A DNA stretch of 64,000 bases from Branchiostoma floridae (lineage: Eukaryota; Chordata; Leptocardii; Amphioxiformes; Branchiostomatidae): positions 15,269,811 to 15,333,810 of the forward strand of contig NC_049986.1 of NCBI RefSeq assembly GCF_000003815.2. The letters are read 5' to 3'. This document shows, one piece after another, positions 12,659-61,100 of this stretch; the stretch's first letter is position 1; each line of letters opens with the position of its first letter. Both the position numbers and the translations under genes were made by a program. Below the pieces are notes generated by a model. It searched no databases, had not been told where the DNA came from, and saw only the letters and a program-made list of their open reading frames with translations.

Positions 12659-13630
12659 TCACGGGTCTTCACATGCCGTCACAGTGTCGAGGAACAACTT
12701 GAGCAGTCCCGGGTGGAATACAGCTAACTGGTGACCCGCTGGCACGACTATGTCCCTATCTTCATCTTCAACGTACTCTGGTAACATCATGGTGTTCAGG
12801 AAAGGTCCCTCAACGAAGTCGTAGTGATGGTCGTTCCGTCCCGCATGAGCTAGCGTCACAAAACGTTGCCACTCGACGAACTTTCCGTCCCGAAACACCT
12901 TCCCGTTGTAGGAGTCTCGCCACCCGGGCGGTAGCGTGTGGGCCACCACGGCCACCTGATACTTCCCAAACACTTCTTCTAATTCCAAAGCCCACTTCTT
13001 GGCGACGGAAATCAACTTGGTAGCATAAAATCCTTCCCTGCTCTTGGGTGTAAAGTCTCTCTTTGAGACATCAGGTTGAAATAGTTCTTCTATATTCTGT
13101 GAAAGGGGTACCACGGCGTAATACGTTTCCTTGTCATCTCGCATTGGCCTGTACCGTTTCAGTAGATCGTTGAATGTGAGAAGGTCAGCTGACCTTAAAT
13201 GCAAATCAAGTTCTAACTGCAAGCATTCTTTCGCCTCTTTTGAAAGTCTAAACGGCATTTCACGGGAATAAGTTTCCTTCGTGATGTCCACACCGGAGCC
13301 GGCATCTCTCAAGTCTTCTTTCAAGGCACTAATGATGAGTTCTGCGTACTCAAATGGTTCATTGCTGGTAAAAATGTCTACTTGGTCGGCAGTCATCTCA
13401 AAGGAAAAGAATCCTGACCTGTCCACGACGGCCCTGGCCTCACGATGTGTGAGTGTGGTTCTGTCCGCTATCGAGGCGCGTATGTCAAAGTAGTAAGCCA
13501 GGAGAGAGTAGTCGTTGAGGAAGGTACGACCGTTCGAATCAGATCCATTCTTCGTAGTGAAGGAGGCTGACGCCTTGAACTTGTTCACCTTGAAGACCGT
13601 CGAGAGTTTGTGCCACGCCTTACGGAACAT
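12659..13630 (-). CDS. Intronless 323-aa protein, possible DUF3990/ADP-ribosyltransferase-like fold
   Basis: A single open frame of 323 aa with no signal peptide or membrane segment, starting MFRKAWHKLS. Its length is about five times that of the chance frames around it. I do not recognise the first 190 residues. The C-terminal third has a pattern recalling DUF3990 proteins of the ADP-ribosyltransferase superfamily: GFYATKLISVAKKWA, a middle EWQRFVTLAHAG, YDFVEGPFLN, and a late HQLAVFHPGLLKLFL. In that family the corresponding words are roughly GFYxTxxxxxAxxWA, YDxVxGPxAN and QxxFHTxxALxxL. No transfer boundary such as flanking repeats is visible. The function call is inference; the reading frame itself is well supported. 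Its stop lies about 500 bp upstream of DDX31 on the same strand, with its own poly(A) hexamer at 12481. Confidence 0.75.
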   Translation of the reverse strand: MFRKAWHKLSTVFKVNKFKASASFTTKNGSDSNGRTFLNDYSLLAYYFDIRASIADRTTLTHREARAVVDRSGFFSFEMTADQVDIFTSNEPFEYAELIISALKEDLRDAGSGVDITKETYSREMPFRLSKEAKECLQLELDLHLRSADLLTFNDLLKRYRPMRDDKETYYAVVPLSQNIEELFQPDVSKRDFTPKSREGFYATKLISVAKKWALELEEVFGKYQVAVVAHTLPPGWRDSYNGKVFRDGKFVEWQRFVTLAHAGRNDHHYDFVEGPFLNTMMLPEYVEDEDRDIVVPAGHQLAVFHPGLLKLFLDTVTACEDP

Positions 13631-14560
13631 TATTTGTTTTGTGTTGCTTCCGACTCCAGTTACCAGACCATTATGACGTTACATAATGACAACGATTCAC
13701 AGAAATCAACTGAGACTTTATATCTTGGAAAAACATGATTGTTACGCAGCAAAGCCCTTTCATAAAGAGTCCAACAAAGCATTCCAGAACACTCCCCATT
13801 GTTGAAGTGTGTACCACTTGGATACCATGTTGTCGATTCACTGTGATACAGACAGTGTGCCATGCAGGGAATCAAGTCTACTATACGCCACAAATGTACC
13901 CGTTTGCGCTCAGACCATTATACACGGAAACTTTGTAAAGAAGTTATGTCAATGGGCTACTTTATGAACGATATAACGTTACTGTTTTGAGTCAAATATT
14001 CTGTCAGTTAGACGAACGGTCTCGAAAAAAATGCGTGGATCTTTAAATTTCGATGCAGTAAGAGCCTCAAATATCAAACATCTCATCCCAAGTCGTTTGT
14101 GACTCAAAGATCCTTACATGCATGCATTGAATTCAATTTCTTGATCACCTGTAGCTGTGCTAGAGAACGTGTGACAATCCGTTTGAAAGATAGAGTAACA
14201 CCTGTCTGCGCACCCACGTTCTTGTAGCGTTGTTTCCTCACAGCACCCTGGTAATGGCACAACTTCCGTATAATCCGGGGAGAATTTGATAACAACGCAA
14301 ACATTCCGTCTTGATGAGGTGAGTCACAGGTGAATCATCGTTTGTGCGATCGTTGGTCAAAGGTCACAAACGTCCTTAAAAGCTAACACTACACACGGTC
14401 GCTAGCAGCGATAGGCAAGTAACCATGTGACCATGAGTATGTTAGGCGGTAGGTGGGAGGATGTTGTTAATAAGTTATTTAACTAAAGGTGTGGCAATTT
14501 AGCTTTCCCTCCACTTGCAAGCCTGGACGGCAGTCAGCTGTACCTCTGGACGTGTTCGAC
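13631..14560. other. Intergenic, divergent-promoter interval
   Basis: This lies between the 5' ends of the minus-strand 323-aa gene and the plus-strand Ly6-like gene, so it must hold both promoters. No clear TATA box was picked out and only short open frames occur. Confidence 0.5.
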
Positions 14561-27109: not shown

Positions 27110-28810
27110 CTAGCTTCGCTGTGACTCTGCTTTCCCTGAGTAGTTGGACTCAGACGGCGCAAACCTGACTTGTTGGGTGGAAGAAGCCCTGTCTTCCTCC
27201 TCAGCCGGAGCCGGTGGTGCTGTGTACTGTATTATCGTCACTTCGTCCACGCCACATTTCCCCACATTGGTGACCACCACAAAGTCCGGCCCGACTGCCA
27301 CAGCCCACGGGTCCGCCATGTCCTCGGCGATGTGTCGGATGAAGTTCCCATTCCTGTCGAACAACTCCACCCTCTTGTTGCCCCTGTCCACCACGATGAC
27401 GTTGTCCTCGCTGTCGGTACAGACGCCGTGCGGCGTGTCCAGGCATCCGTTCTCGGTGCCCTGAGTCCCGAACCTTGACGGTTTGTCTTCGTCCTTAAAC
27501 GTGTGGACTCTGTGGGTCCAACAGTCGCTCACGAGGATGTTGCCTTTGCTGTTGACCGCGGCGTACCGTGCCTTCCTGGTCCGACCTCCCACCGTTCTGT
27601 ACATCGTGCCGTTGGGCAGGAACACCTTGGCACAACTTTCAACATACCATTTTCCCTCCCACGGCCTGACGCGTTGTTCTGTGACGATGATTTCCATGTC
27701 AGGTTTGGGAGGAAGGTCGTCATCTTCCTCCGTCCGAATCTTCTCCCTGTTCCAGAGGTTGTTCGGTCTCGCTGCGATGCCGTGCCACGATTCCTTGCCT
27801 GTATGGGGGATGTCGATCTTGCTGATAAAGAGACCCTCTTTGGTGAACTGGACTACAAAGTCCGTCGGAAAACGTTTCTTCGGGATTGCCAGTGAACCCA
27901 CAACCCAGACTTTCTCGTACTTGTCTATCGTGACATCCTGTGGTTGAAACGGCACGGGTTTGAGCAATCCTTTTATGGTGGTTTGAAACTCGCGTATGAA
28001 CTTTCCCTCTGTACTGTAGATAACGATCCTCTCGTTGTAGCAGTCTGCGATGTATATCTCGGAGTCTTTAGACACGGCAAGACCGGAGACACAGCGAAAC
28101 TTGTCTTTGACACGCGTGCTTCTGCCCCCAAATGTGATCGGTGGAGGCTCCTCCGGTTCTGGTGGTACATCTTCTGGTATTTCTTTGAGCGAAGCCAAGC
28201 TTCCTCTTTTAGACCCAGTTAAGCTTCTAATCGAGCCTATTATGCTCTGGGTCAGACTTTTCTTTCGGCCTGTGGTTCCTACTGCTGCGTTTGAGACCCC
28301 CTCTGCTTTGATCGACTCCGCTTTGCTTCCTCTTCTTGAACCAGCTACAGATCCCTTGACAGACCCAGATATGCTCTGTGTCAGACTTTGCCTTCGTTCT
28401 GTGTTCGCTTCTTCTGTGTTTGCATGTAGCTCTGCTGTAACCGTGTTTGCCTCGGCCTCTAGTGTTTCTCGGGATACCGCCTTGCTTCCTCTTCTCGATC
28501 CTGCTAGGCTGCCTCGGATAGACCCTGCTATGCTCTGAGTCAGACTTTTCCTCCGGTCTTTACCCCCATCTTGCGATGCTGCATCTACCTCTGCTGTTTG
28601 TCTGTCTCCCTTTTCTTGTGTTGTTGTGTTCCCTTCTGCCGTCCCCGCGTTAGCCTCCTCTGCTTTCGCGTCCGCCGCTGTAGTTTCTCCAGTGACCGAC
28701 CCTGCCACACTCAGTCCTCTGACGGACCCAGACAGGCTCCCTCTCCTCGACCCTGCCAAGCTTTCCCTGATGCTGTTGGTCAGACTTTTCTTCCGGACTT
28801 TTTCCGCCAT
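27110..28810 (-). CDS. Intronless NHL beta-propeller protein with four N-terminal SLTQSI..GSRRGS repeats
   Basis: One open frame; the ATG at 28810 (CAAAATGGCGG) gives 566 aa, and the in-frame extension up to 28927 looks like 5'UTR. Residues 6-25, 86-109, 139-162 and 182-204 carry four copies of a K/RKSLTQSI-x-GSxRGSxAGSRRGS module rich in R-x-x-S sites favoured by basophilic kinases, separated by Ala/Glu/Thr-rich linkers. A Pro/Glu hinge (about 212-224) leads to ITFGGR and an NHL propeller to about residue 545. Propeller words include GLAVSKDSEIYIADCYNERI, PQDVTIDKYEKVWVVG, ILVSDCWTHRVHTF, NVIVVDRGNKRVELFDRNG and FIRHIAEDMADPWAVAV. RING, B-box and coiled coil are absent, so it is not a TRIM ligase. 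The propeller probably binds RNA or protein; the role is unknown. Confidence 0.9.
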   Translation of the reverse strand: MAEKVRKKSLTNSIRESLAGSRRGSLSGSVRGLSVAGSVTGETTAADAKAEEANAGTAEGNTTTQEKGDRQTAEVDAASQDGGKDRRKSLTQSIAGSIRGSLAGSRRGSKAVSRETLEAEANTVTAELHANTEEANTERRQSLTQSISGSVKGSVAGSRRGSKAESIKAEGVSNAAVGTTGRKKSLTQSIIGSIRSLTGSKRGSLASLKEIPEDVPPEPEEPPPITFGGRSTRVKDKFRCVSGLAVSKDSEIYIADCYNERIVIYSTEGKFIREFQTTIKGLLKPVPFQPQDVTIDKYEKVWVVGSLAIPKKRFPTDFVVQFTKEGLFISKIDIPHTGKESWHGIAARPNNLWNREKIRTEEDDDLPPKPDMEIIVTEQRVRPWEGKWYVESCAKVFLPNGTMYRTVGGRTRKARYAAVNSKGNILVSDCWTHRVHTFKDEDKPSRFGTQGTENGCLDTPHGVCTDSEDNVIVVDRGNKRVELFDRNGNFIRHIAEDMADPWAVAVGPDFVVVTNVGKCGVDEVTIIQYTAPPAPAEEEDRASSTQQVRFAPSESNYSGKAESQRS

Positions 28811-29473
28811 TTTGTCCCGGTTTTGTGTCTTTAGCTGTGTCTTCACTCGATGAAAAGTTGTAAGACCGGTCTGACAGCTAGCAAGTGGCCCACACGTAGG
28901 CCCCTGTTTATGTTTAGGGCTACTCAATGATTTCGAATGCCATAAAAGAAAGGGCTAACAAAACTCCAATACGATTATTTCACGTTACTTCGAGCTAAAG
29001 TCATGAAAAATTAGCTAAAAACTATGCTCATTTTACATCAAGGGCCTTTATCGATAGTATTCATGGCAATCATTTAAGATAACATCACCTGCACGTGGTG
29101 ACCCCGCCCCTTTCTTTAAGCCCAAGGGGATATAGACAACATCTAGATTTGTCCTGTTTCAAGCTTCTTGGTCATTTCTGGATTGACTACGGATGAAAAT
29201 TTGATCGCAAGATCGACGTTACTCTTCGCTGCAAATGTTTGTTGTGATTTTATCAGATTAAAAGGGGAAAAGGCACCAACCAATTGTTATTGGAATGATT
29301 GAGTATCAATGTAGATAACATATCTTACAAATATCCGAGGTCGTATGTTATGGATATTCTTAACCTTAACCTTAGTGGCGAAACTGCCTAAACAAAGTAT
29401 TCTCCCTAGTCAGCGCAGTTAGTCTGGTAGATAAACTGAAAGCCGCTAGCTGTACTTTCTTCATAATAATGAA

Positions 29474-30925: not shown

Positions 30926-33900
30926 TTAAAGTTCATCATGCATCTCCAGATGCTTGTACATGAGCCGTTCCAAGGTGGGGTCATGAAACCTGGCCGAGTC
31001 AAAAGGCTGTAATGCGGCCTTAATGTTCTCCTTCAGCAAAGCAATTGTCAGGATACCACCATCATTTGGGACCAGCTTTGACACAATCTGGGTGTGTCAG
31101 AACAACATAATAGGTTAAAAGTTCTTCTGTGTTGGAAGGTATCATTCTGAAAATCTAATCAAGGAATGAAAAATCCACGTCTTCCGAATGATGTCACATT
31201 ATGCAGATGACACACATGACTTAGTGAGTAAACTTTATTCTGTTCACCAAGTCATGTGTTTGTTCTTCTGCATAACATCACAGAAGCTACGGGGAGACAA
31301 CGTGCAGAGGTGACCTGTCACCTGTTTTGTCTCGCCCTCCATTGATATGGAAAGTTCAATAAACAAATAAACAAAGCGGTGGATTGCTCATTTCCTTGAC
31401 AATTATTGAAGTTGAATTTTTGTGTAGGAAATTAAAGTTCAATCTTGCTTCAGAAAGTTAAACAGAACAATATTTCACAAATTGGAGCAAACTTTATCTT
31501 ATCATACGCTAGCATAGCCTGATTAAATCTCGCTTATAGCAGCCCGCCAAACATCCGCCGGCAGGGAGGGGCCAGTTAGAGCCCTGGACAGCGGAGTTTG
31601 TGTTACACAGACTAACGCTAGCACTGTAAAGCCGTTGTGTGACTATATTTTGCTATCAAGTGAATCTTTTTTGGGTTGAGATAAAGTCTCACCTCCTCTG
31701 CCACCTGTGAAGTACCCCCGAGTGTATCCACATACTCCTTCACAAACAGGTCTGTAGGTATCTTCCCGTTATGCTGATGCACCAAAGTCACAAGTAGTGC
31801 CCTATTAGAATGAAAAAGGACAGTTGACACATGATAGAAAGGATAAGAAAGTTAATTTATCTTACTAGTATATGCCAGTGTCATCTATGAGGATATAGAT
31901 ACTGTATATAACGTTACATGTAGTTATCATGATTACACGTAGTGCGGATCACGGCAAGCTGCCGGATCACGGCAAGCTGCCGGATCACGGCAAGCTGCCG
32001 GATCACGGCAAGCTGCCGGATCACGGCAAGCTGCCGGATCACGGCAAGCTGCCGGATCACGGCAAGCTGCCGGATCACGGCAAGCTGCCGGATCACGGCA
32101 AGCTGCCGGATCACGGCAAGCTGCCGGATCACGGCAAGCTGCCGGATCACGGCAAGCTGCCGGATCACGCCGGATCACATTTTCCATTCTAGTCAAATTT
32201 TTCATCAAATGAATGCATTCCTCTTTCTTTCCATCGGATCAATATCAATTCATACATTATTCAGCAAAATCTAGTTTTAATTCTAAAAATGTGAATGATT
32301 GGAACAAGTTCATTTCTGTTATTCTGAAGTTGTTTATGAAGCATCCTGACATAAATTAATCCATAACATAATTATGTTGACAAACACAATGAGAAAATCA
32401 CGATGATAGAAACATTGTGTCTGCCAATGTTTTCATCTTCAATGTTGATGCTAATAGTTAACAGATCTCAGTTCCTCCTTGTGAAGGCCTCACCTTATTC
32501 GCTCCGCCTCTATGTGGCTGTACTCGAACGATTCCATGTCAGACACATCTGTGGGGTCGATGACCAGCATGAGCTCCTTCATCTCCTCTACTGTCAGCGC
32601 CTTCACCTCATCCTTGGTGATGTAACCTCTTCCTTCTGGGTCCACCTTCTTAGCAAACTATATGAACAAACATTTTACACTCTTTACACACCTACAGGGG
32701 GTCTTGTAGACATATCAACGTTACATTCAGATTCTTTACACTCTCACAAGGATTTTTGTAAAGAAACATTCCATCTGGTTGAGAGGGAGTGGAGCAATGG
32801 AGCAGGCATATGCAGTAGATTTCTCCCTTTCCACAGTTTAGGCTTTTAGAGAATCTTAAATTAAGATGTATAGTACCTTAAGATCCTCTGAACCTGAACC
32901 GTACCTTTACCTGATTTTTTGTACCGGTACCCACCCCTAGTGAGTAGCAATTGTTTGATGTAACAACTAGTGACTGCTCAGTGCCTGCAAAGCTGATGTA
33001 TATTCACATAATTATGTGGGTTAATTGCAGTAAGGGAAACACTTTTTTGACATCACTGTATCCTGTTAAGATGACTCGTAAACTGACCTCGCTCCTCATG
33101 TTACTGTAGAGCTCATCCATGGTGTTTATCTGTTCCTGTGTCATTTGAAAGTTCTCTTCAATCTCATCTTTTGCTTCATGTTGACCCTGCGTAAAAAGAA
33201 GACACAACAAGAAATAATGTGGATGTAAACTTCAGTTGAGATTGGTACATATATCCAACACTTTTGTTTGGTCTTTTGCATACTTGACCTGCGAATGTAT
33301 GATGGGTCATTGTTGTCACTGTAGGTGTGATCATACCCCTGTCACATCCACGATCTTCGGGCGTATCGATGGAAGGTTGGCCATAATCAAGATCGACTGA
33401 GGGTTGTGCATATATTTCACCTGAAAACCGTCCCTGTCACATATAAGCCATACTTTGTATCTTGTACAATTGTTGTGCAATAAAGTTATTAGTATAAACG
33501 AGGCTCGGGCGATTGTTGCAGAGTGGTCGTCCGATCGATTTTCACCAAATGTGACAGGGACTACATATAATACAACTTACTGTACATTGACTCACCTTGA
33601 TAAAGTTGTGCACGAAATGTTTGACTGAAATCTTCCCTTCAGAGTCGGCCAGGAGCAACAGGAGCCTCCTGTAGATAATGACACTGGTTGATCATAACAG
33701 ACTACTTTTCGTGATATCAATTCTTCATTCAACAATCACAAAAAATAGAGCAGTTCCTCTATTGATTCAGATTGTTTTTCTCACATGCTCATGTTTTTTT
33801 CAGAGCACACCAGAGCACTGATCCTCACTCTAGTTGATGTGATGCGTACATAATGCTTCTGCAAAGTAACATGGACAATGTGTAGTCCCTGCCAGTAACA

Positions 33901-36900
33901 TTGTTTTATCAATTGGGGTTCATTGGAGCCTCTAATCTCTAGGTTTGTAGAATTTGTATGTGAGGTAAAAGCTTTCCCCTCAAATGTATACATACATGAA
34001 AAATGTAATATATCTATTTCTATATTATGTACTGCAAATAGTACACAACCAAGAGTAAGGTAGTGGCCAACAGATGTTTATTTCATTTTTCATGTTACAA
34101 TTCCTAATGTTCAAAATGCTTAAAACAAGACACTTAATGAAATGTACAATGTGCAAATACAGCATAACAGAAAACTTGACAACAGACATCATCAAAGACA
34201 ATTACATTCGAACATCCTCAAGAACATTCATATTACTGGCTGCTTATTACTGAGAATATAGCTATTCATTGTTGACAATATTTACTCAGTCTAAAGACAT
34301 CAAAAGGTAACAAAGAATAATAATTCTCTATCAAGGTCAGGGTTTTCCCATTCCATGACCAGTTATTTTCTTCCTTCATCTCAACAAATCCATGCAGGAT
34401 TGGACCTTATTTTAATTTTTTTCCTATTCAGACCAATTTTGTATTTCAAGATGACAGATTGTCCATACTTTTGTCGTCACTTGCAACAAGATTTCCCTGA
34501 AATGATGGTATGGCAGATAATGGAGGAAACCCTTGAGAAGAAGATTAAGAAGACAGAAACACAATACTGATTACAATTTTACAGAGGGACCGTTGCTGTG
34601 GGCAGTACTTCTCATCATCAATCACCAGCTAGTTTTCATTAATGTGACAAACATGAAAAACTAAAAAGGGATGATATTTAACATATAGATATGATTATAC
34701 ATTGAGTTAGAAACTGGACTGGAGGGTCCGGAACTTCTTACAGCGATGTATGACTGACTGTACTGGAAGTGAAACTTCACTTGATGCACCTCATAGAGGA
34801 TGACAAATGATGATGATATCATACATTGTATTGAATTAGAAAGTGTGGCACTAATTCAATGTGTTAGGTGTGCACAGTATTAATAAATTGTTCTAGCTAA
34901 ATATTATTCTAAAAACTTTAAGTACAGCTTTAAATACTGCTAACAGAGTACCAAAGGGCAAAGTTTTCTCTAGTCACGCCAAAAAGTAGTTACTCAAGCA
35001 ACTGGATATGGTTTTGGAAACGGTCAAACGTTTCAACTTCTACTCTAGTCAGATTCAGGCATAGAAGTTAAATTTGAGTATAGTGATGGTGCAACTTGTA
35101 GAGACTAACACTAACTGTCCCTGCGCGGTCATGGCAACAGCATGTGGTGACACTATATCTGTAGCGATGTGCCTGATGAATCTGCCAGTCTTGTCAAACA
35201 GCTCCACTCGGTTATACTCTCTGTTTGCCACAATGATGTTACCTGAATGGTCTGCACAGATACCACAGGGAAGCTTCAGGTGACCATCATCTCTGGTCTT
35301 GCATGTCACTCCAGACCGCAGCAGTAACTGTCCATCCTGGCTGAATGCATAGAAACAGTTATTGGCCCAGTCTGAAACGAGAATGTGCCTTCCCGATCCC
35401 TTGTCCACATCGACATACCGCAGGTATTTAGACATCCCTCCCTGCTTTTCACCCAAGGTTCTCACGAATGTCCCATCTGCCCTGAACACCAACACCACCC
35501 CATACGGTTTGGATGGACTTCCTGTGGTTTCTGTAATGAAGACTTGATTTTTCCTGGTGTCCACGGCAACTCCTCTGCCCTGCGTAGTGTACCGTAGGTT
35601 AAGCTTGTTGATCATACCACCCTGTTCGGTGTACAGTACAGCATACTCAGCAGAGTCTGTCCTCCCCACCACCCACACATACCCCATCCCATCAATGGCA
35701 ACATCACCAGGGCACATCTTCTCTCTGTCCGACACGATTGTTGGGAACTGGCGCATGAATATTCCCTCTACAGTGAAGACTTGGATTCTCTGGTTGCAGT
35801 AGTCGGCCACAAAGATACATCCATCATCGGACACTGCAACACCGCTTGGGTCCCTAAACTTCCCTGGTTCTCGTCCCTCTCCACCAAAAGTTATCCTCTG
35901 AGACTGAAGCTCTGACCTGTTGACATGATGACCTGTTGTGCAATGTCTTGCATTGTTTCTCAATGTAACAACAGGCAATGGTGATGGTGAACACTCATGA
36001 TTGGTGACAGCTGCTGTGGCTGGTGTAGAAGAAAGAGACTGGACTGTCACACGTCCCAATAATGGCCTTACGATGTCTGTGGGCTGGAAGAGAGTATGCT
36101 GGGTTTGTACAGGCGTAGGCTCTGATTTTCTTCTGTGCCTTCCTACCACCTCTGTCAAAATGGTTTCCTCACTAAAAGGCCCATCCCCACCCTGCCCCAG
36201 TTCTTTTTCTGCTTGATTACAGGCATCAGACAGTTCTTTTATATCTCCCAATACCCTGTCTCTCTCAGCATTTATCTTCTCAAAGTTTTTCTTGTGATTT
36301 TGTCCAACTTCAGCCAAAAGAAAGCCTTTTCTTAGTTCGAGTTCCTCGTCCAGTTGGTTGTAGGAATCGATGATTCTGCTCCTTGTTTGCTGTTTCTGTG
36401 TATTCAGGGTTCTCTCTGTCTCTCCCAAAATTCTCAGGAAGTTGCAGTAACTCTCCAGAATGTTTCTTCCCTCATTAATCAAGGCTTGGACAGTGGACCT
36501 CCTTTCAGGCTGTATGGTCACCCTGTGAAGCCTTTCACACAGACTTGTAACCAAGTAGTTGTCTGGCAAACCTGCTATCCCCTTGGGCGCCAGCATGACC
36601 TGCTGACGGCAGTTTGGGCACTTGAACGCCCACACTTTCTTTGAATTCCCCACATGGTCCAGGAGGCAACCCTGACAGAAGGTGTGTCCGCATGGCAGCA
36701 CCTTCGGCCTGGTGAACAGCTCCAGGCAGATGCTACAGGACAGTTCTTCACGAATCTGCTCCCCTAAGCTTGACGGTGCAGCTGCCATTTTGTTGTCCCT
36801 TTTAAGCCTGTGACGTGTTCTGCTGTTCCTCCCTGGAAGGCAACATTAGTGACGCAAGCCCTGACCTATTATTGGCAGGTGTGTCCACTCACTTATGACT

Positions 36901-39900
36901 CACATATACCGCACGTCCAATGTTCCTGCCTGTCTACAGCGCAATGGCACATAGTGTGTCCACAGCTGGGCCAGAATTCAATAGATTTTTTGTTAGAACT
37001 TTGCAAGTGTGTCCACCTGTAAATGGTGGTTTTATGCTATGCTTAGTGGCTCCTTCATTTTAGGCATAACTTCAGGAAGTGATTTTACAATTACAGTGCT
37101 GAAAACAGGTTTACTTACATGTACAGTAACTAGTAATGTCATGTGAGGTCAGTGACATCTAGAGACTGTTTACAGAAAGTAACAATAGTGATGTAAGCCC
37201 GCCTATCAGCACCAGGTGTGCCTACTGGCTTGTGATTCACACATACCAGATGTCCAACTTTTCTGCATGTCTGTGATAGCAATGGCACTGTTGGGCCACA
37301 ATAAAACATTCACTGTGCTAAGCCAGAATAAAACGTAATACTCATTTTTTAGAACTTTTATCCTTATTGAGTCTACCTGTGAATGCTCCAGATCTATCAT
37401 GTATATGGTCTCTCTTGTTTAAGACAAAATGCCATGGCATGGCTAGGTAAATACCTTGAGAAACTAATGATGCCTGCAGGGCATTTGGGGCTTGAATACC
37501 CAGCTGCAACCTGTGATTTGCAGACTAAGAGCTTTGCAATATTCAGACTACAGGTTACAAGGTTGTAAGAAATGCACAACAATGTATCATGATGTACAAC
37601 TTTGTGCAGTTTTCTGATGATGTGGTTAATCACCAAATCCAAAGATCAGTTACTTTTTGACCATTTAGTCTTTAATGATGTCAAGGACAAATGGGTGGGA
37701 CCTTCAGTTTGGACAATGAAGCAAACCAGTTTTCAAGGAGACTGTCAATTTTTCTTACCGCAAGGCATGGTCACAATGAAATTGAGGTCAATGACCCTCT
37801 AGCCAAGTAACAGGTGGTCTATCCAAGGAGGTCAAAGTTCAAAAGGTTCCACTGGATTGGATGTGTACTTTGTTTGTTTATTACAATTTACCTCAAATGT
37901 GGATGGGTTGAGAGAACTGGTGTGTCATTAAGTTTAACTGGTGCGCTATGCTACGTGGTAGTATATCAGGCATGCAATACATACAAACAAACTAACTAAA
38001 AACAATCAAAGTGCCTTTTTTGCTCCACCCAGGAAGGAATTATAATGACCTCTGACCTGAGGATGTGAATGTCCATGTGACCTTGGGGGAGGTCACCATG
38101 GCCGCTGTAACGCCACAGCACGTCCACCTGGTCCATGGGCGTGAAGTCGAACTCTTGGTCGCACCCGGTGTTGTCGAACTCCTTCAGACGAGAGATCCAG
38201 ATGGACACAGCGGTGTTGAGGTGGCCGTTCACTCTCACCTGGTGGGGATAGCCTACAGGAAGGAGGGGCAACACTTGCAGTTAGAAATGCAAGGCTTAGG
38301 CTGTAATAACTTACTGAAATGACTCATGTTGTCATCTTGATCATGTAAATAAGAATTATTCATCTTAAAAGCTGAGAACCAAATATGAGCAAATTTGGTA
38401 ATTTCTGACAGGACTAAAGTTTGGTCAAAATTGAAAAGTATAAACTAGAAGATCCTCTTCGAAAGTTTAAAAAAGATGAGTACTGAAGTTAAAAAGGCAA
38501 CCAGGGAGCCCATTAATCTTCACCACTTACTGTCTGCTCCATGCCAGTCTGTAAGTCCTGCTACAGTACCTAGAAACCCACTAGGAGGCTCATTATCTCT
38601 CTTAATCTTTCTGACAGGTATACCCACCCACCTATCATGAAGATCCTACAACAGCTTCTTGAGTTATACTGCTTACATAAACAAACAAAAGCACCTTGCC
38701 TGCTGGCCTCAAACAAACAGCACCAGGAACATAAAACAGCGAGCAGATCATATGATTGAACTGGGCAGAGCACTTTGGAGCCTTTTGCAGTTTAAACTTA
38801 CATAAATGATATTTTGTGAGAAACTTCTCTGGTACTCAACGGATCAAAATGACTACCAGCAGGGTTCTTCATAATTTGTGGAAATAAAAAAATCTTGAGA
38901 TGTATAACAAAGATCTTGAGACTTAATGTTAAATCTTGAGATATTTTGACTTGATCTTGAAATGCTTTGACTTGATCTTGAGATGTTTTGACTTGATCTT
39001 GAAATGCCTTAGAAAAATACAGAAGATGCTTTGCAAAAATCTTAAGATAGTTTGAAAGTTGCTTTGAAAAAGTCCCATGTCTTGAGATGTATAAGAAAAA
39101 ATCTTGAGATCATTAAAAAAATCTCAAGATTATTGTGAAAAATCTCAAGATTGTCTCAAAACATCTGGAGATTGACCACAAAATCTTGAGTTAAAAAAAA
39201 ATTTCAATGAGGTGTGAAGACTCCCACTAGGGGATATTATGATCTACTGTGTAACTGAGGAAAGGATTTTGAAAAATATTAGATGTTTATCTTTAAGCTG
39301 TAAACAGTCACAAGCATTAGTCCAAAATGTCCTGAAAGTCCAACAATGATCTGCTTGCTGTTATAACCTTATTGGCAATGGTGATAACATGAGGTAAAAC
39401 TTTAAGGACTTGCCTCCAGGTACAAAGATACAGTCTCCCTTGTCCATGGTGATGCGAGCAAAGCGGACATCCTGGACCTTGGGGAACTCTAACATGTCCA
39501 CGCGGTCAACATCGATCTCCGAGAACCCTCCCCACTCGTACCTCGACTCTTCCGCAAAGTACAGCAAGTCACTCTGGAGAATAGAGAGAAATGGATGGAA
39601 CACTACAATGCAGAATCCGAACTTCCATTAATAAACCTTCAAGTTTTCCTATCTGTGGAGTCATTCAAAAATGAACAGCTATGGCAATGACAGCAGGGCT
39701 GTCTCCAGGACCCATTCCTCCATCCCAGGACAGAAATTTGCTTCTTGGAACGGACTAAGATGTCATCTTTTCCTCCCGAAATGATGAACTCCATAGCATG
39801 AAACTGCTTAAAATACATTTTTCTAAGTATAAATTGACAGTTTACACAACGAAATTCAAAGTGGCAGGAATGATGGTCAGTACCTGGCTGGGATCTATCA

Positions 39901-41312
39901 GAATCCAGTCCTTGGTACCATTAAACAGACAGTGGAAGGTGCTGTATGGGTCCCTGTGCACCTTGGTCATTCCTCCTGCTGCTGTCAGGAACAGATGAGT
40001 CTCCTAAAAAAAGTTGTTCAATAATAAAACACAGCTCTGACAAAATTAATTGGGTCTGTTATAATTTGCTATATAGGCCAATACAGCACTACTTATGTAC
40101 ATACTAGCCTTACTAATAGTAACTCATAAAGTAAGACTTATGGTGTTCTTTAATCACTCACTCACTCACTTGCTCACTGTCATTCATTCACTCACTCACT
40201 CTTTTACTCACTCACATGCTCCCTTGCTCACACATACTCATCGAACACTTAACGTTATACAGAAATATTTATTGACACGACAAAAGTACAGCGACTTTTG
40301 TAAGGTCTTATAATAGCAACTACTTAAAGTACATATAAACAGACATATATGAATACATGTATCTATAGAAATGAATAAGTCAACATGTTGAGTTACATAA
40401 GACAGATAGAAAGAAAGAAGAAACATGGCTTCACCTGGATGCCCTGTGCGATACTGCCACACCTGAGGCAGGGTGGGACAGCGACATCCCTCTCCATGGG
40501 ACGGGGGATCTGTGAGATCACGTACGCGTCCATCGTCTCGAAGTTCTGCATGAAGTGAGCGACCGTGTCCCTTCCAAGGCCCCCCTCCCCTGCAGGGATC
40601 TTGCCGTTACCCTCGCTTCGTGCCTCCAGTCGTACGGTGAGGTTGCCGTACTCGCGGATGAGGTACTCTGGCGTCCACAGAGAGTACGCACGTGAGGGCT
40701 TCGCTGCTCCCCTCAGCAGGACAGGCTTGTTTGGTTTGACGAATTTGTCGAAAAACTCCTGGGGTTGCGGGACTGTCATAGTGGTGGATGGCAAGAAAAG
40801 ACAATTTGTTTATGAACAATTGTGGAAAGTATCAATTTACAGAAGAGGTTTCGGGTCGTGGAACTCAACACTAAATTATCTACTGTTTCTTCCAATTTTG
40901 CCCTCCCCATGACCTACATGTAACGTTAGATAATTATTCTTTTTCGTGGACTAAAACTTGGTTAGCACAAAGTATGGTATCCAGTGTCCACAATGTGATA
41001 TCATGTTGGCTTCATGGATAAAACTAAAAGTTACTTTGCTTGTTATCCAAAACACTAGTTTAGCTGTCATCTTTTTATAAAGATCCTAGAGAGTGACTAT
41101 TAAAGAAGCCTGGTCACGAAGAAAAATCTAGTCCAACCTGTGAACATCTCGTCGATGGTTTCTGTCGCTTCTGCGTGAGATCCGAAGATTTCTAAGTGTC
41201 CCCTGGGACTTCCACAAGGGACATCTTTAGAGCATGAGTTCTGCTGTACAGCTGATGAAGAAATGGTCACCAAAGCTGTCAAGAAAAGCGCTACGCTGCA
41301 AGAACCCTTCAT
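30926..41312 (-). CDS. Predicted ER-lumenal JmjC oxygenase with EF-hand-like repeats and HDEL tail
   Basis: Ten exons: 41312-41138, 40772-40435, 40003-39884, 39573-39414, 38252-38057, 33668-33596, 33186-33088, 32657-32494, 31801-31693 and 31087-30926. The sum is 1596 nt, a 531-aa protein. A signal peptide (MKGSCSVALFLTALVTISSS) leads to a cupin_8/JmjC domain of about 59-300. Its Fe(II) ligands are H187 and D189 in TKVHRDPYSTFH and H268 in GYPHQV; K202 in NGTKDW is the likely 2-oxoglutarate contact. The triad is intact, so hydroxylase activity is plausible. Residues 330-531 hold about four EF-hand-like units: one canonical loop (DPEGRGYITKDE) and three degenerate ones built round a GKI or GGI core. 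The chain ends LEMHDEL, an ER-retrieval signal. The exon at 39414 uses a GC donor (GGAG/GCAAGT). The 4.4-kb intron between 38057 and 33668 contains another gene on the same strand. Confidence 0.87.
31945..32177. repeat. Perfect 18-bp minisatellite, 12 copies
   Basis: CGGATCACGGCAAGCTGC repeats without a single change from 31945 to 32160, followed by a decayed partial copy (CGGATCACGCCGGATCAC). It is in a JmjC-gene intron. The long open frames through it on both strands (AACRDP, DHGKLP and SCRITA type) exist only because the 18-bp unit lacks stops. Confidence 0.97.
33336..33561. mobile_element. Possible MITE with CCCTGTCACAT ends
   Basis: The left end CCCCTGTCACAT near 33336 matches the reverse of ATGTGACAGGGA at 33549-33560. 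A third direct copy (TCCCTGTCACAT) occurs near 33430. It is in a JmjC-gene intron. The ends match over only about 12 bp, so the element boundary is tentative. Confidence 0.4.
35055..36788 (-). CDS. Intronless RING/coiled-coil/NHL protein (TRIM-NHL-like E3 ligase)
   Basis: One open frame of 577 aa starting at ATG 36788 (AAAATGGCAG). Residues 18-60 form a C3HC4 RING finger with C18, C21, C33, H35, C38, C41, C57 and C60 (SCSICLELF, LPCGHTFCQGC, CPNC). No B-box Cys/His cluster follows; the chain goes through GLPDNYLVTSL into a coiled coil (about 95-205), then a variable linker, and an NHL propeller from ITFGGEGREPGKFRDPSGVAV (about residue 300) to the end. This is the TRIM2/3/32/71-type layout minus the B-box. 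Expected role: ubiquitin ligase whose propeller selects the target; targets are unknown. The gene sits inside the largest intron of the JmjC gene, same strand, which suggests arrival by retroposition or a nested duplication. Propeller wording (NRVELFDKTGRFIRHIA) is close to the NHL protein at 27-29 kb. Confidence 0.94.
   Translation of the reverse strand: MAAAPSSLGEQIREELSCSICLELFTRPKVLPCGHTFCQGCLLDHVGNSKKVWAFKCPNCRQQVMLAPKGIAGLPDNYLVTSLCERLHRVTIQPERRSTVQALINEGRNILESYCNFLRILGETERTLNTQKQQTRSRIIDSYNQLDEELELRKGFLLAEVGQNHKKNFEKINAERDRVLGDIKELSDACNQAEKELGQGGDGPFSEETILTEVVGRHRRKSEPTPVQTQHTLFQPTDIVRPLLGRVTVQSLSSTPATAAVTNHECSPSPLPVVTLRNNARHCTTGHHVNRSELQSQRITFGGEGREPGKFRDPSGVAVSDDGCIFVADYCNQRIQVFTVEGIFMRQFPTIVSDREKMCPGDVAIDGMGYVWVVGRTDSAEYAVLYTEQGGMINKLNLRYTTQGRGVAVDTRKNQVFITETTGSPSKPYGVVLVFRADGTFVRTLGEKQGGMSKYLRYVDVDKGSGRHILVSDWANNCFYAFSQDGQLLLRSGVTCKTRDDGHLKLPCGICADHSGNIIVANREYNRVELFDKTGRFIRHIATDIVSPHAVAMTAQGQLVLVSTSCTITILKFNFYA
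38880..39200. repeat. Degenerate ATCTTGAGAT array with a strand switch
   Basis: About a dozen copies of ATCTTGAGAT or ATCTTGAAAT spaced 20-35 bp apart run to about 39115; beyond that most copies appear as the reverse complement ATCTCAAGAT (39121 on). The two halves could fold on each other. Intron of the JmjC gene. Confidence 0.8.
40157..40235 (+). repeat. (ACTC)n microsatellite, imperfect
   Basis: Short runs of CACTCACTCACT interrupted by TTGCTCACTG and TTTTACTC, in a JmjC-gene intron. Confidence 0.8.
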
Positions 41313-52600: not shown

Positions 52601-54676
52601 CTAAGTTTAGTGCCCTGGATATCTGTGTGACCAAATCCATACACAAAGCAAAAATATCTTAAAAGTACTTAAAGTAGATGAAACCCTAGTTTTCTTTCCT
52701 GGTCAAGGTTATGATTAGAAATGATTGAATGTTTATAAAGCAGAGCACAATGAATTTAAGCTAAAGTGCTTTACAGAAAGGCAGTATAATTCTATAAGTG
52801 TTTGTCATCTGAACCATTGTCTTTGTTGAATTGAAAGCCTTAATGCCAAATATAATATTAAAAAAAATCAACTTTTTGTCCACCTCTAGCCCTGAGCAGC
52901 TCTGGATCCTGAACCCAAAACAACTGCTGAAGAAACGGGACTTGGAGCAAGTTGAGGTAATGAAATGTCCTCCCTGAAAATGTCTTTATCCAATTTCTTG
53001 GTTCTCAAATTTCAATCTAAGATTCGTTTTCCTTGAACTTTTTTCCTATCATTCTCCTCATGTAGCCCACTGAGACAGACAGCCTCCTACACCACCGTAA
53101 CATCCCCAAATACCACGCCACCGACGATAGCGCCCAGAATGAGGAAACCGAGGAGTCCGAGCCTCGCGAGTGTTGGATCTGCTATGATCCGGACAAAACA
53201 GACGCTGGTGAGATGATCCAGCCATGTAACTGTAAGGGAGATGTGTCTGCTGTTCACCATGACTGTCTGAAGAGATGGCTCGCTGAGGTGAGTCAACAAA
53301 CTGTACATTTTATTTATTTATTTACCGTATTAAGGTTCTCCAATACAATGGAAGGTATAGTGGAACAGGTGTTTCTTGTTAGAAGACATCTTTTCAAGGC
53401 TATCATACCGAATTTGTGTGTAGTATGTTTGTTATCAAGAAATTGGAATGTATTACTCACATATTCATTCGTCATCTGCAATGACTTAATGCAATATAGA
53501 GACTTGGTCATGTTCTATAGACGTGTGAAAAGCATCATTATATGCCCGGTTGCAAGTTGCAAGGCCAAATGTTTGTTGCTGTAATTTTACATTTTCCCCC
53601 ACTTTCTCCAGTCTATGGGCAGTGGGTCTGCACCAAGATGCAAGGTTTGCAAAGAGAAGGTAAGAGCAATAAAGGTTACATAATAAAGTTACCCCTGGTT
53701 CTAGCTCAAGCCATCATCAGACACCAATAACTTTTACAATTACAATGTAAGTGTAAAAAGTAAAGTTGACACACTGTAATTTCAGCATCCTTGAAAAAAG
53801 ATGAGATGAGTTATGAATGAATAAAAAGAGACACAACCACAGCTTTATTTTGAAGTCTCTTTATTCAGTGACATACCAACCTGATGAAACTATTCACAGA
53901 TGAGTCATGAATGTACATAATCTCTGTGTCAAACCTGTCATTTTGTCCTGTAACAGTACCAGCTGCGGGAGGGCAGTGTGTGGCTCCCCTCCGCGGTGAC
54001 AGTCCGCCAGTGGCTCATCTTCAGCTTCATCCTGGTGGTCATGTCCGCTGGACCGTTCATTGTGTACCTGATTTTCCGAAGCTTTGCGTCTCCCGTGCCA
54101 AAGATTCTCGGGATTGGAGGAGTTGTACTTCTGGAGTACATCTGTTTGAAGTAAGTAGTCTTAATGAAGGTTACTTTGAGGTGCTTTGAGTAATTGATGT
54201 AGACTATAGATTGTGATAAAGATGAAAAGCAGATTGAAATTCTAAGACTACACTAGGGAAATGTCAGCTCTATGGTGAAGTACACTTTTTGAGTTTTGAT
54301 TCCACAGGTTATGAAAGAATCATCTTGTTTAAAAAAATGGTCTTTGTGTGTTTTTTTACATGCTTAATTAGAAATACCATTGGGTCATACTGTCTGGCAA
54401 TTTATCAGTGTTACTAGAGACAAAATTTAATGAATCCAAAGAAAAAATGACTGCTTTTAAATGAAAGTTTGTTTCTGTGTGCTCTTTAGGCTGCTTGGGT
54501 TCAACTGCCTGACTGTGTACCAGCAAGCCAGACTGTCAGCCCTGAGGATTCTGGGAAGGCCTGTTCCTGCCCACAGTTGTGTTCCACGGAGGGAGAATTC
54601 TGAAGACAGAAGCTCAGAACCACATCAGAACATTGTGGTGGTGGAGGCAGAGGTGCATGTCGGAAACCATGTCTGA
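46687..54676 (+). CDS. EGF-like / multi-pass membrane / RING-CH protein, putative membrane E3 ubiquitin ligase
   Basis: Thirteen coding exons: 46687-46812, 47344-47445, 47811-47948, 49914-50009, 50510-50653, 51277-51372, 51938-52086, 52408-52506, 52890-52956, 53066-53287, 53612-53659, 53957-54150 and 54490-54676. The total is 1668 nt, 555 aa. Residues 24-50 are an EGF-like module (C24, C28, C34, C39, C41, C50). Seven membrane helices follow, roughly one per exon 2-8. Residues 375-426 form a C4HC3 RING-CH finger: C375, C378 (CWIC), C393, C395, H403, C406, C423, C426 (CKVC). Two more helices flank GGVVLLEYICLK. The seven-helix part, with YYPLLITGSSLVVCVWAE and RPRFLTKSF, recalls THH1/TOM1/TOM3-GPR137 proteins; that resemblance is tentative. 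A RING-CH in a membrane protein is known from MARCH ligases, which ubiquitinate membrane cargo; that is the expected role here. I know no vertebrate protein with this exact order. Confidence 0.9.
48524..48891 (+). mobile_element. tRNA-derived SINE
   Basis: The head reads like a tRNA with an A-box-like region (GTGTCGCAATCGGCAGAG) and a B box (GAGGTCGAGCCCTG). The body contains GTGTCCTTGGGAAAGGCACT and TACCTAGCTTCAGCTAGGG, words I associate with SINEs of lancelets and other deuterostomes (BflSINE1-like). An ACCACACTTATTGA stem-loop follows, and the 3' tail is (GAA)n at 48877-48890. It is in an intron of the RING-CH gene. No clear target duplication. Confidence 0.75.
51733..52293 (+). repeat. 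Local duplication around coding exon 7 of the RING-CH gene
   Basis: Intron sequence before exon 7 (51766-51925) and after it (52130-52293) are copies (GCTTCTGTATCTGTAT, CGGCTTCTCAGGTATG, AGTGCAxCAGCAG). In front of the first copy lies a stub (51733-51770) matching the exon 7 acceptor and its first coding bases (GTTGTTCTG..AGGTGCATGGTGC). Confidence 0.8.
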
Positions 54677-58147: not shown

Positions 58148-61100
58148 TTATCCATCTAGTAGACCCAGGCCGACTTTGGGCTGGATATTTCTCCACTGGG
58201 ACACGGAAGGTTCATCGCTCTCTGCACTCTTGGTCCTTGTTGGAGGGGGAAGACGTCTTAAACGGGCACCCTTGTACTTCAGGGGCTTCCTTTCCTTCAA
58301 GACTTTCTTCAGTCCAATAGTTATCTGGAAAAAAGAAAACAGTCCAATATGATATTTTTACATTGTATTGTACATTACAGTTATGTACCGATCAAGGAAG
58401 TTTACATCAATATACTAGTAAGACAGTTGTACGTGTGTACCTAAAATCTCAAATCTACTCTAAATTTTGAGATGTTCATTTATTTTATTTCTGTCATTAT
58501 TACCCAGGGTTGTCCAACTCAGTGCTATTGCACTGCTTTGCATGGTGGTTCAATTTTCAGAGTGACCTCAGAAATGATGACGCTGTGAAGACTGTATTAC
58601 TCCCATTTTAATTGTAAACTTAGCACAATGTCAAAACATCCTTTTACCTTAAAGATTCAAAATGAAATTACAAAAAAAAATTTACAGCTTTCTGTACATC
58701 GTAAAACCATGAATATGATATCATACCTTCTTCTTGCCCTTTGCAATCTGCAAGTGAAAGTCTCTCTCTTCCATGCACATTTTCAGGTCTGGAAGGATGG
58801 GGGGCCTCTTGGCTTTTGATGCAGGGAAGGGGCCTTTGATGGTGGCCTTCTTCTTCTTTGGCATATCTTTTATCACATAAGGTTCTTCAGACACCTGTGT
58901 ACCCTTGTCTGTCATGTCTTCTGAGGAGTCCACAGCCAGAGACAGCTCAGGAGCAGAGTGGCTTCTGTTGAAGGGAACCAAAACAACACGTCAAAGGATG
59001 AAGGTCAACGAGATTGACCAAAAATTCATGTTGAGTGTTTTCCTTGTGTTGGAACAACTTAGCTCAAAACTGTTCAAATATGGATTCTACCAACACAGAT
59101 GAGTCTTCACTTGTCAAAAGGATGTTATCAGACAATTTCTTTTATGATTATGTAGCTGAACATGTCTGTGTCAAGATGGCTTCCTTTTTTGATTGAAATG
59201 ACAATTTCAGAAAAAAGCAAAATCTTAAAATATTTATTTTAAATTTCAGATTTGCTCCAACATATGTCTGAGACATCTTTGTTTGCAACTGTTCGCGTTT
59301 TACTTGCAAGTGCAACTACTACTAATCTATTTGAAAGGTAGACTTTACATTGATTGATTGCTTTACCTATTTTTGAAAGCACAACTGCTGGTAATCCTTG
59401 TATAAGGGGCTAAGAAGTAAACAAAGTGAGATGAAAGAAAGATCTACCTGTCCACAGGAGGCAGTCTGTGTGACGGAGCTGCAGCCATGTACAGCATCTG
59501 GTCCAGCGTCAGCTTGGCGGCTTTCGCAGCTTTGCTCTTCATCACCTCCCCCACGCTCTTCCCCGGGAACAGGCGTGACAGGATGGACAGTATCTCGTCG
59601 CTGCTGGGATCCAGGTGCAGCGACATCAGGATGTCTTCTCGCGCCCCGCGTATGTTCTGATGGAATGGACCAGCAGAGTACACAATTAGTATTTGTGTAT
59701 TGAATCTTGGCAAGACCATATCAAAGATAGCAGAGATGCCCTATAGTCTGTGTCTGCTGTCCAGGGCTGTAACTGGCCCCTTCTCAAAGGCCAGTCAGAT
59801 GTTGGGCAGGCTGCTATAAGAGGCTGGCTATAAGTGAGATTTAATCAGGCTAACTTTGCCCCCTCTGCCAGAACGTACAGAAAATGCACTGCAGAAACAT
59901 ACACAGACAGACAGATATTCCAAAAACAGGGCTTCACTTCCTTAGGAAGCCAGAGAGATGCAAAGTTCTCACCTCCATCATGTACCTGGCCCGTGCCCTG
60001 TAGACGTAGAAACGGGCGACCTTCGGGTTGTTCTGAATGGCAAGACTGAAACGGGTCTCTGACTCCTGCAGGGCAATGAAAGAAACATAGTCAAACAAAT
60101 CTAGCTTGTTTTGCAACAGCACTTTCCAGAATGTAATGTCATATTCTCATCTTTTTCAGAATAATAATGGTATAGAATATTCTTTTATCTTATAAAAGGC
60201 TCAGAGTGATATAGAACTTAACATTGTATGTCAAAGTCAGTTGTCTATATGTTAAAAGGAAAAACCTTGATTTTACTTTTTAAGAATGGAAACAAACCAT
60301 TCACAGACTGAAGAAGGTGATATGCGGTCACTGTAACTCCTTGGTTGTGAATGAAAATCTTTGTCATACAGTCATTTATTACCAGCCTAGTACTAGTACA
60401 TGTAGTAGTTATTCACATACCTGGTAGTTCCTTTCTTCATAGTCCAGCACACCAAACTCGCTGTGAACCACGGCTATCCTGGACCTGACTGCCCAGTCCT
60501 CAGGGTCCAGCTCCAGGGCCTGGTGATAGTCGGCCAAGGCAAAATGGAGATCCCCTTGTCTGAAGAAACAATCTAGAACAAAAGAGACAAAGCAACAACT
60601 TTTGAAATAGCACAGAAGAAATAAATAGCAACAACCTCCATTCAGGATTGAAGTCTAATGGCTGTATTGTCACAGGCAAGTGAAATCGGGCAAGCACATG
60701 TCCTACCCCGCTTGCCCTACCGGGCAAGTAAGATGTTTCAATAAATGAGATTTTCATATTCATATGCTTGTTACTTTTCACAGTCATGGCATCAAGCAGT
60801 GGTCAACACAGAAAAATAGAGCCACTGATTAAAGAATTCCATTGCTGGAAGTGAAAATGCATAGAAAAAAGTCATTTAAACTTTGGGCAAATGAAACATA
60901 AACTTTTGTCTATTTGTCTCACCTCCTCTGTTGATATACAGGCCTTTCTCCCTCTTTTCTCCTTTGATAGCCTTGTTCAACAGAATTATAGCCTCGTCAT
61001 AGAACCCCTTCTGGAAACACTCCACAGCAAAGTCATTGTACGTCAGGAGCAGTTGTCGCTGGCCCTCCATGTACGTGGGGTCCTGCTCATTGTGGTCAGT

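Follow-up and report, generated by a model that had tools for sequence, protein, structure and literature searches.

Introduction

HRJD genes, which encode a JmjC domain together with an EF hand, are described as conserved in highly regenerative animals and as lost in others, Drosophila by name (PMC11295675, PMC11077316). They are reported to be missing in several arthropod orders and retained in Chelicerata (PMC11077316). RNA interference ties HRJD to planarian regeneration and expression in the fly ties it to lifespan. What the proteins do at the molecular level is described as unknown, and they are discussed as potential histone demethylases (PMC11295675, PMC11077316). The effect of HRJD on gut junctions is described as non-cell-autonomous, and DjHRJDa and DjHRJDb are available under accessions LC408963 and LC408964 (PMC11295675). 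Here, we analyze a JmjC gene within a stretch of 64,000 nucleotides from the lancelet Branchiostoma floridae (C8:15269811-15333810 of the 513-Mb source genome, hereafter the window). The predicted product combines a JmjC domain and an EF-hand-like region with a hydrophobic leader and a C-terminal HDEL. We estimate at roughly 70% the probability that the gene encodes a lumenal Fe(II)/2-oxoglutarate (2OG)-dependent JmjC oxygenase of the endoplasmic reticulum (ER), most likely a hydroxylase of proteins that pass through this compartment.

JMJD8 is an ER-lumenal JmjC protein with a signal peptide, in which a His replaces the iron-binding Asp (PMC5684140). P4H-TM is an ER 2OG oxygenase whose EF domain binds Ca2+ in the ER range and whose EF-hand motifs are, according to its authors, found in no other characterized 2OG oxygenase (PMC7948501). 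JMJD5/KDM8 is nuclear (PMC11295675). Comparing the window protein with these enzymes, it differs from JMJD8, a JmjC domain alone with His for Asp, by an intact HxD (HRD) and an additional C-terminal domain, and these two features rule out JMJD8 orthology. The predicted combination of ER 2OG oxygenase and EF domain is shared with P4H-TM (P4HTM); however, the EF domain of the latter is inserted in a prolyl-4-hydroxylase catalytic domain, and the enzyme is membrane-anchored and not of the JmjC type. Similarly, the design of a lumenal enzyme with EF-hands and an xDEL tail is that of FKBP14 (FKBP22), which is a prolyl isomerase rather than an oxygenase. To our knowledge, JMJD5/KDM8 has no leader, EF-hands, or xDEL.

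Gene model and JmjC domain

The gene model was rebuilt independently from the raw sequence. The gene lies on the minus strand and consists of 10 exons that join into a single 531-aa frame of 1596 nt, starting with an ATG at 41312 and closing with a stop codon that ends at 30926, and the phases agree across all nine exon junctions. Eight of the nine introns are GT-AG, and the one after exon 4 is GC-AG (donor AG|GCAAGT). The GC of this donor is located at window 39412-39413, and an intron-bearing paralog on C14 has GT at the same position and phase.

The Pfam Cupin_8 (JmjC-type) profile matches the window protein with E = 3.4e-35 and 122.6 bits, against a curated cut-off of 27.4, and is covered from position 1 to 245 of 252. 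Among proteins of solved structure, JMJD5/KDM8 comes closest in sequence (7.2e-15), ahead of JMJD7 and FIH. H187, D189, H268, and K202 align with the JMJD5 positions that we take to be its iron triad and 2OG lysine. A nine-row alignment of the lancelet group described below, from which L017 was left out, shows no variation at the HxD, the distal His, the 2OG Lys, or three cysteines. A structure model devoid of a JmjC barrel would count against this assignment; in the predicted structure of a paralog, the double-stranded beta-helix barrel is present, with JMJD5 as the nearest solved relative in fold, and the assignment stands. An AlphaFold2 model built from three rows had a poor barrel (mean predicted local distance difference test score of 39.6), and its EF region alone was used. 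The window protein is predicted to perform Fe(II)/2OG catalysis.

Leader and C-terminal HDEL

The window protein opens with a leader that is signal-peptide-like by hydropathy (KD11 = 2.66, residues 7-17) and possesses no strongly hydrophobic stretch past residue 30 (maximum KD19 = 1.08). Two N-glycosylation sequons (N102 and N199) are present, and the C terminus is HDEL. Across the six frames of the whole window, [KHR]DEL precedes only one of 6707 stop codons, and this one belongs to the JmjC gene. Judged by its sequence, the protein thus carries both features of a KDEL receptor client, a leader and a C-terminal xDEL. Hydrophobic leaders are also found in three intronless copies of the gene and in L009, L011, L013, and L015, and a leader followed by a GH..(L/F)G motif is repeated in paralogs that include these last four. 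Moreover, [KHR]DEL terminates 4 of the 4 group members with a resolved C terminus. We infer that the window protein resides in the ER. The original prediction had described a signal peptide, an intact HxD..H iron triad, and a C-terminal HDEL within a ten-exon, phase-consistent frame, and each of these elements was recovered in our analysis, the signal peptide as a hydrophobic leader.

EF-hand-like region

On the window protein, all Pfam EF-hand models score below their cut-offs (best E of 0.04 for the whole protein and 0.007 for exon 8 alone), and the EF-hand identity of the region rests mainly on the paralogs. The canonical EF-hand loop for Ca2+ spans 12 residues and has a ligand at the fifth (Z) position. 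The window protein has degenerate loops, the best of which, DPEGRGYITKDE, carries an Arg at this position. An EF-hand-like region had thus been correctly recognized in the original prediction, whereas its description of the loop as calcium-type was generous for this member. EF-hand models match the three intronless paralogs at 2.9e-6 to 1.3e-3, below the curated cut-offs. The loop of L015, DTNGDGQLSVEE, reads as canonical and matches EF-hand_5 above the Pfam cut-off, while the loops of L013 and L011 read as canonical against the consensus and fall below the Pfam cut-offs. Overall, EF-hand-like sequence is present in 8 of the group's at least ten JmjC genes. The calcium link that had been proposed is therefore plausible for the family, given the loops of three paralogs that read as canonical, but weak for the window member.

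Paralogs in the source genome

The matches listed by a Cupin_8 search of the source genome number 41 at exon level, from which 8 loci, 11 regions, and 6 downstream regions were read; several of the 41 match places lie outside these, and the number of paralogs given here is a minimum. The group comprises ten loci, picked by tblastn matches ahead of tree building: the window gene, the intronless copies on C3, C4, and C1, two genes on C14, and one gene each on C19, C18, C8 (at 7.5 Mb), and C2. Trees were computed from the JmjC parts of this one genome and are unrooted, so that "group" denotes one side of a branch. The branch that separates the ten loci from L007 and the other JmjC genes read has support of 95/96 with 16 rows and 99/96 with 14 rows. 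Rows for intron-bearing paralogs were taken from spliced alignment; the smaller tree omits two long branches (L001 and L018), and L014 and L008 are absent from both. We take L006, L001, and L018 to be HSPBAP1-, JMJD7-, and FIH-like, respectively. L007 is the JMJD5 of the source genome and shares 135 identities over 194 aligned residues with the human chain. JMJD5 orthology of the group is ruled out, as it lies opposite L007 across the supported branch. The unrooted trees do not single out the nearest outgroup, and the best matches in both sequence and structure are to JMJD5. Within the group, the window gene neighbours the C14 gene L009 (support 99/96 and 99/97), and its row forms a long branch (0.85-0.88).

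Among the intronless copies (L002, L003, and L004), the pairwise ratio of nonsynonymous to synonymous substitution (dN/dS) is 0.16-0.20 when full lengths are compared and 0.10-0.14 for the JmjC part, which indicates old, selected genes. The whole-length dS is 0.85-1.54, and the dS of the EF part is saturated in two of the three pairs. These copies are located on three contigs and probably arose when an ER oxygenase expanded by retrocopying long ago. L014 (C306:51500-55849) sits on a short contig, carries gene pieces almost identical to those of L013 on C18, and is probably the other haplotype. No relatives outside the source genome were found in peptide-pattern scans of viral and genome contig collections or by tblastn of one paralog against phages, a result of little weight, since such scans detect no more than close relatives and the collections are not drawn from animals.

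One gene or two

Intron 5 measures 4.4 kb and contains a 596-aa intronless RING/NHL open reading frame (ORF) on the same strand, which makes the exon 5/6 junction doubtful. The locus might hold two genes split by the RING/NHL gene, the first encoding the JmjC part and stopping after exon 5, the second encoding the EF-hand/HDEL part and starting near exon 6. However, the paralogs on C3, C4, and C1 each combine a leader, the JmjC domain, the EF-hand-like part, and a terminal RDEL, RDEL, or HDEL, respectively, in one uninterrupted ORF (435, 434, and 438 aa). The spliced alignment of the intron-bearing C14 paralog spans window residues 13-515 with 194 of 510 columns identical, and introns occur at the identical residue and phase in both genes at 265/1, 330/2, 442/2, and 479/0. 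The 330/2 intron is the doubtful exon 5/6 junction, and its C14 equivalent measures 387 bases in the spliced model. Two other introns are close but displaced (359/0 and 384/0 in the C14 paralog against 355/0 and 388/0), and the spliced model has two extra small introns, of which we are unsure, with no window counterpart. Because both halves share single ORFs in three paralogs and the junction intron is conserved in position and phase, the two-gene arrangement is rejected at the level of sequence, and we give it almost no credence. The original prediction of an ER-lumenal JmjC oxygenase with an EF region in one gene therefore holds at this level, except that its calcium link is weak for this member. 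Its suggestion of a possible loss in vertebrates would be in line with the published loss of HRJD from animals that regenerate poorly (PMC11295675).

Proposed function and alternative explanations

In the mechanism that we propose, the leader would carry the chain into the ER, where a JMJD5-like barrel would bind iron via H187/D189/H268 and 2OG via K202 and would use O2 to hydroxylate a client, presumably a secretory or matrix protein. The EF-hand-like domain would act as a lumenal module, expected to bind Ca2+ in some paralogs and to serve mainly structure or client binding in the window protein. The HDEL would bring escaped protein back to the ER through the KDEL receptor. Several observations weigh against this interpretation, including the degenerate EF loops described above. 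The Asn that follows the HxD in JMJD5 and in seven of the nine aligned members is replaced by Thr in the window protein and by Ala in its C14 sister L009 (residues 187-193, exon 3), so the geometry of the cofactor or substrate may differ. An xDEL tail was seen in 4 of the 10 members, the C termini of L009, L011, L013, L015, L016, and L017 not being delimited. The last found exon of L009 closes on a consensus donor, and an xDEL-ending exon was not found within about 20 kb past it; an ORF ending in HDDL downstream of L015 could not be tied to the L015 gene. With respect to the gene structure, the first intron of the C14 paralog differs from that of the window gene (69/0 versus 59/1), and the window introns at 172 and 212 are missing from it. 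In addition, HRJDs were reported to be cytoplasmic in fly cells (PMC11295675), and the likeness to HRJD was drawn from published descriptions of domain content and nearest relative, not from HRJD sequences.

The substituted Asn, together with the long branch of the window row and the degenerate EF loops, would also fit an ER-resident pseudo-oxygenase, chaperone, or scaffold that holds clients through its barrel and EF domain but does not turn them over. Yet the HxD, distal His, and 2OG Lys are invariant in nine of nine rows, which is unexpected for an inert copy, and the dN/dS of the JmjC part of the three paralogs is low; we consider this explanation improbable. A nuclear or cytosolic KDM8/JMJD5-type enzyme, with the leader and HDEL present by accident, would agree with JMJD5 being closest among solved structures by both sequence and fold and with the discussion of HRJDs as potential histone demethylases (PMC11295675). 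However, the same genome has L007 as a separate JMJD5 gene, leaders are seen repeatedly (window protein, three intronless copies, and four further paralogs), and [KHR]DEL in all four resolved members contrasts with its single occurrence among the window stops, which makes such an accident highly improbable.

The combination of JmjC and EF hand has been published before under the name HRJD, of which the original prediction was unaware, and the new, testable point is the ER address. The likeness consists of a JmjC domain and an EF hand and nothing else, although the window protein has an EF match below cut-off. KDM8 is the closest outside relative of HRJD, and JMJD5 is the nearest solved relative of the window protein. 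HRJD is non-nuclear when expressed in the fly (PMC11295675). In this work the coding sequence was FLAG-tagged at its 5' end, and the text consulted does not mention an ER marker (PMC11295675). Neither PMC11295675 nor PMC11077316 uses the terms "endoplasmic" or "signal peptide" in its main text, with the original study by Cao et al. (2019) outside this comparison. The lancelet group may be orthologous to HRJD. It is unlikely, though less so than an inactive enzyme, that the combination arose apart from planarian HRJD as a lineage-specific ER family that is uninformative about it. Such an origin would agree with a comparison made by description rather than sequence and with the ten or more copies of the source genome, some of them intronless, as against typically two or three HRJDs per species (PMC11295675). 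On the other side stand the identical two-domain content and the place of KDM8/JMJD5 as closest outside relative of HRJD (PMC11295675) and best match of the lancelet group, as well as the inclusion of the cephalochordate B. lanceolatum in the high-regeneration species set of PMC11077316, the consulted text of which does not state whether HRJD is present there.

Coordinates and neighbouring features

Table 1 Features of the JmjC gene and its surroundings in window coordinates
Feature	Position	Strand	Content
Exon 1	41138..41312	-	Start codon, hydrophobic signal-peptide-like leader, RGHLEIFG motif
Exon 2	40435..40772	-	N-terminal half of JmjC (Cupin_8) domain
Exon 3	39884..40003	-	HxD of iron triad (H187, D189) and 2OG lysine K202
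Exon 4	39414..39573	-	JmjC barrel; GC-AG donor; intron 265 phase 1 common to C14 paralog
Exon 5	38057..38252	-	Distal iron histidine H268; JmjC match ends here
Intron 5	33669..38056	-	Nested intronless RING/NHL ORF; residue 330 phase 2, common to C14 paralog
Exon 6	33596..33668	-	Putative first EF-hand-like unit, degenerate loop
Exon 7	33088..33186	-	Putative acidic linker
Exon 8	32494..32657	-	EF-hand-like loop DPEGRGYITKDE, the best of the protein, with Arg as Z residue; below Pfam cut-offs
Exon 9	31693..31801	-	EF-hand-like unit, degenerate loop; intron 442 phase 2 common to C14 paralog
Exon 10	30926..31087	-	Last EF-hand-like unit, C-terminal HDEL, stop; intron 479 phase 0 common to C14 paralog
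Nested ORF	35055-36845	-	Intronless, 596 aa, RING finger and NHL repeats
Second NHL-repeat ORF	27113-28954	-	Intronless, 614 aa, serine-rich N-terminal part
Minisatellite	31945-32169		18-bp unit in intron 8, 12.5 copies, 100% matches
ORF	12662-13678	-	DUF3990 match below cut-off
ORF	53066-53581	+	RING-variant domain
ORF	60879-61899	-	TPR repeats

The nested ORF is likely a retrogene of the TRIM/NHL kind, and no B-box appears among its matches listed at E up to 1. The second NHL-repeat ORF lies about 2 kb downstream of the gene end. The minisatellite looks recent.

Implications

Since the biochemical role of HRJD is unknown, HRJDs may be protein hydroxylases of the secretory pathway and not histone demethylases. 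We tentatively suggest that HRJDs and their lancelet relatives could be ER-lumenal, calcium-tuned hydroxylases of this kind, that their reported loss in low-regeneration animals could have taken away a modification that secreted or matrix proteins receive, and that the regeneration and non-cell-autonomous gut phenotypes could arise from altered secretory clients. If the proposed function is correct, the window protein would be a JmjC protein of the ER that, in contrast to JMJD8, keeps its iron triad intact, and its family would give the ER 2OG oxygenases a second lineage with EF-hands alongside P4H-TM. If HRJDs share the ER address, the search for their substrates would shift from chromatin to the secretory pathway.

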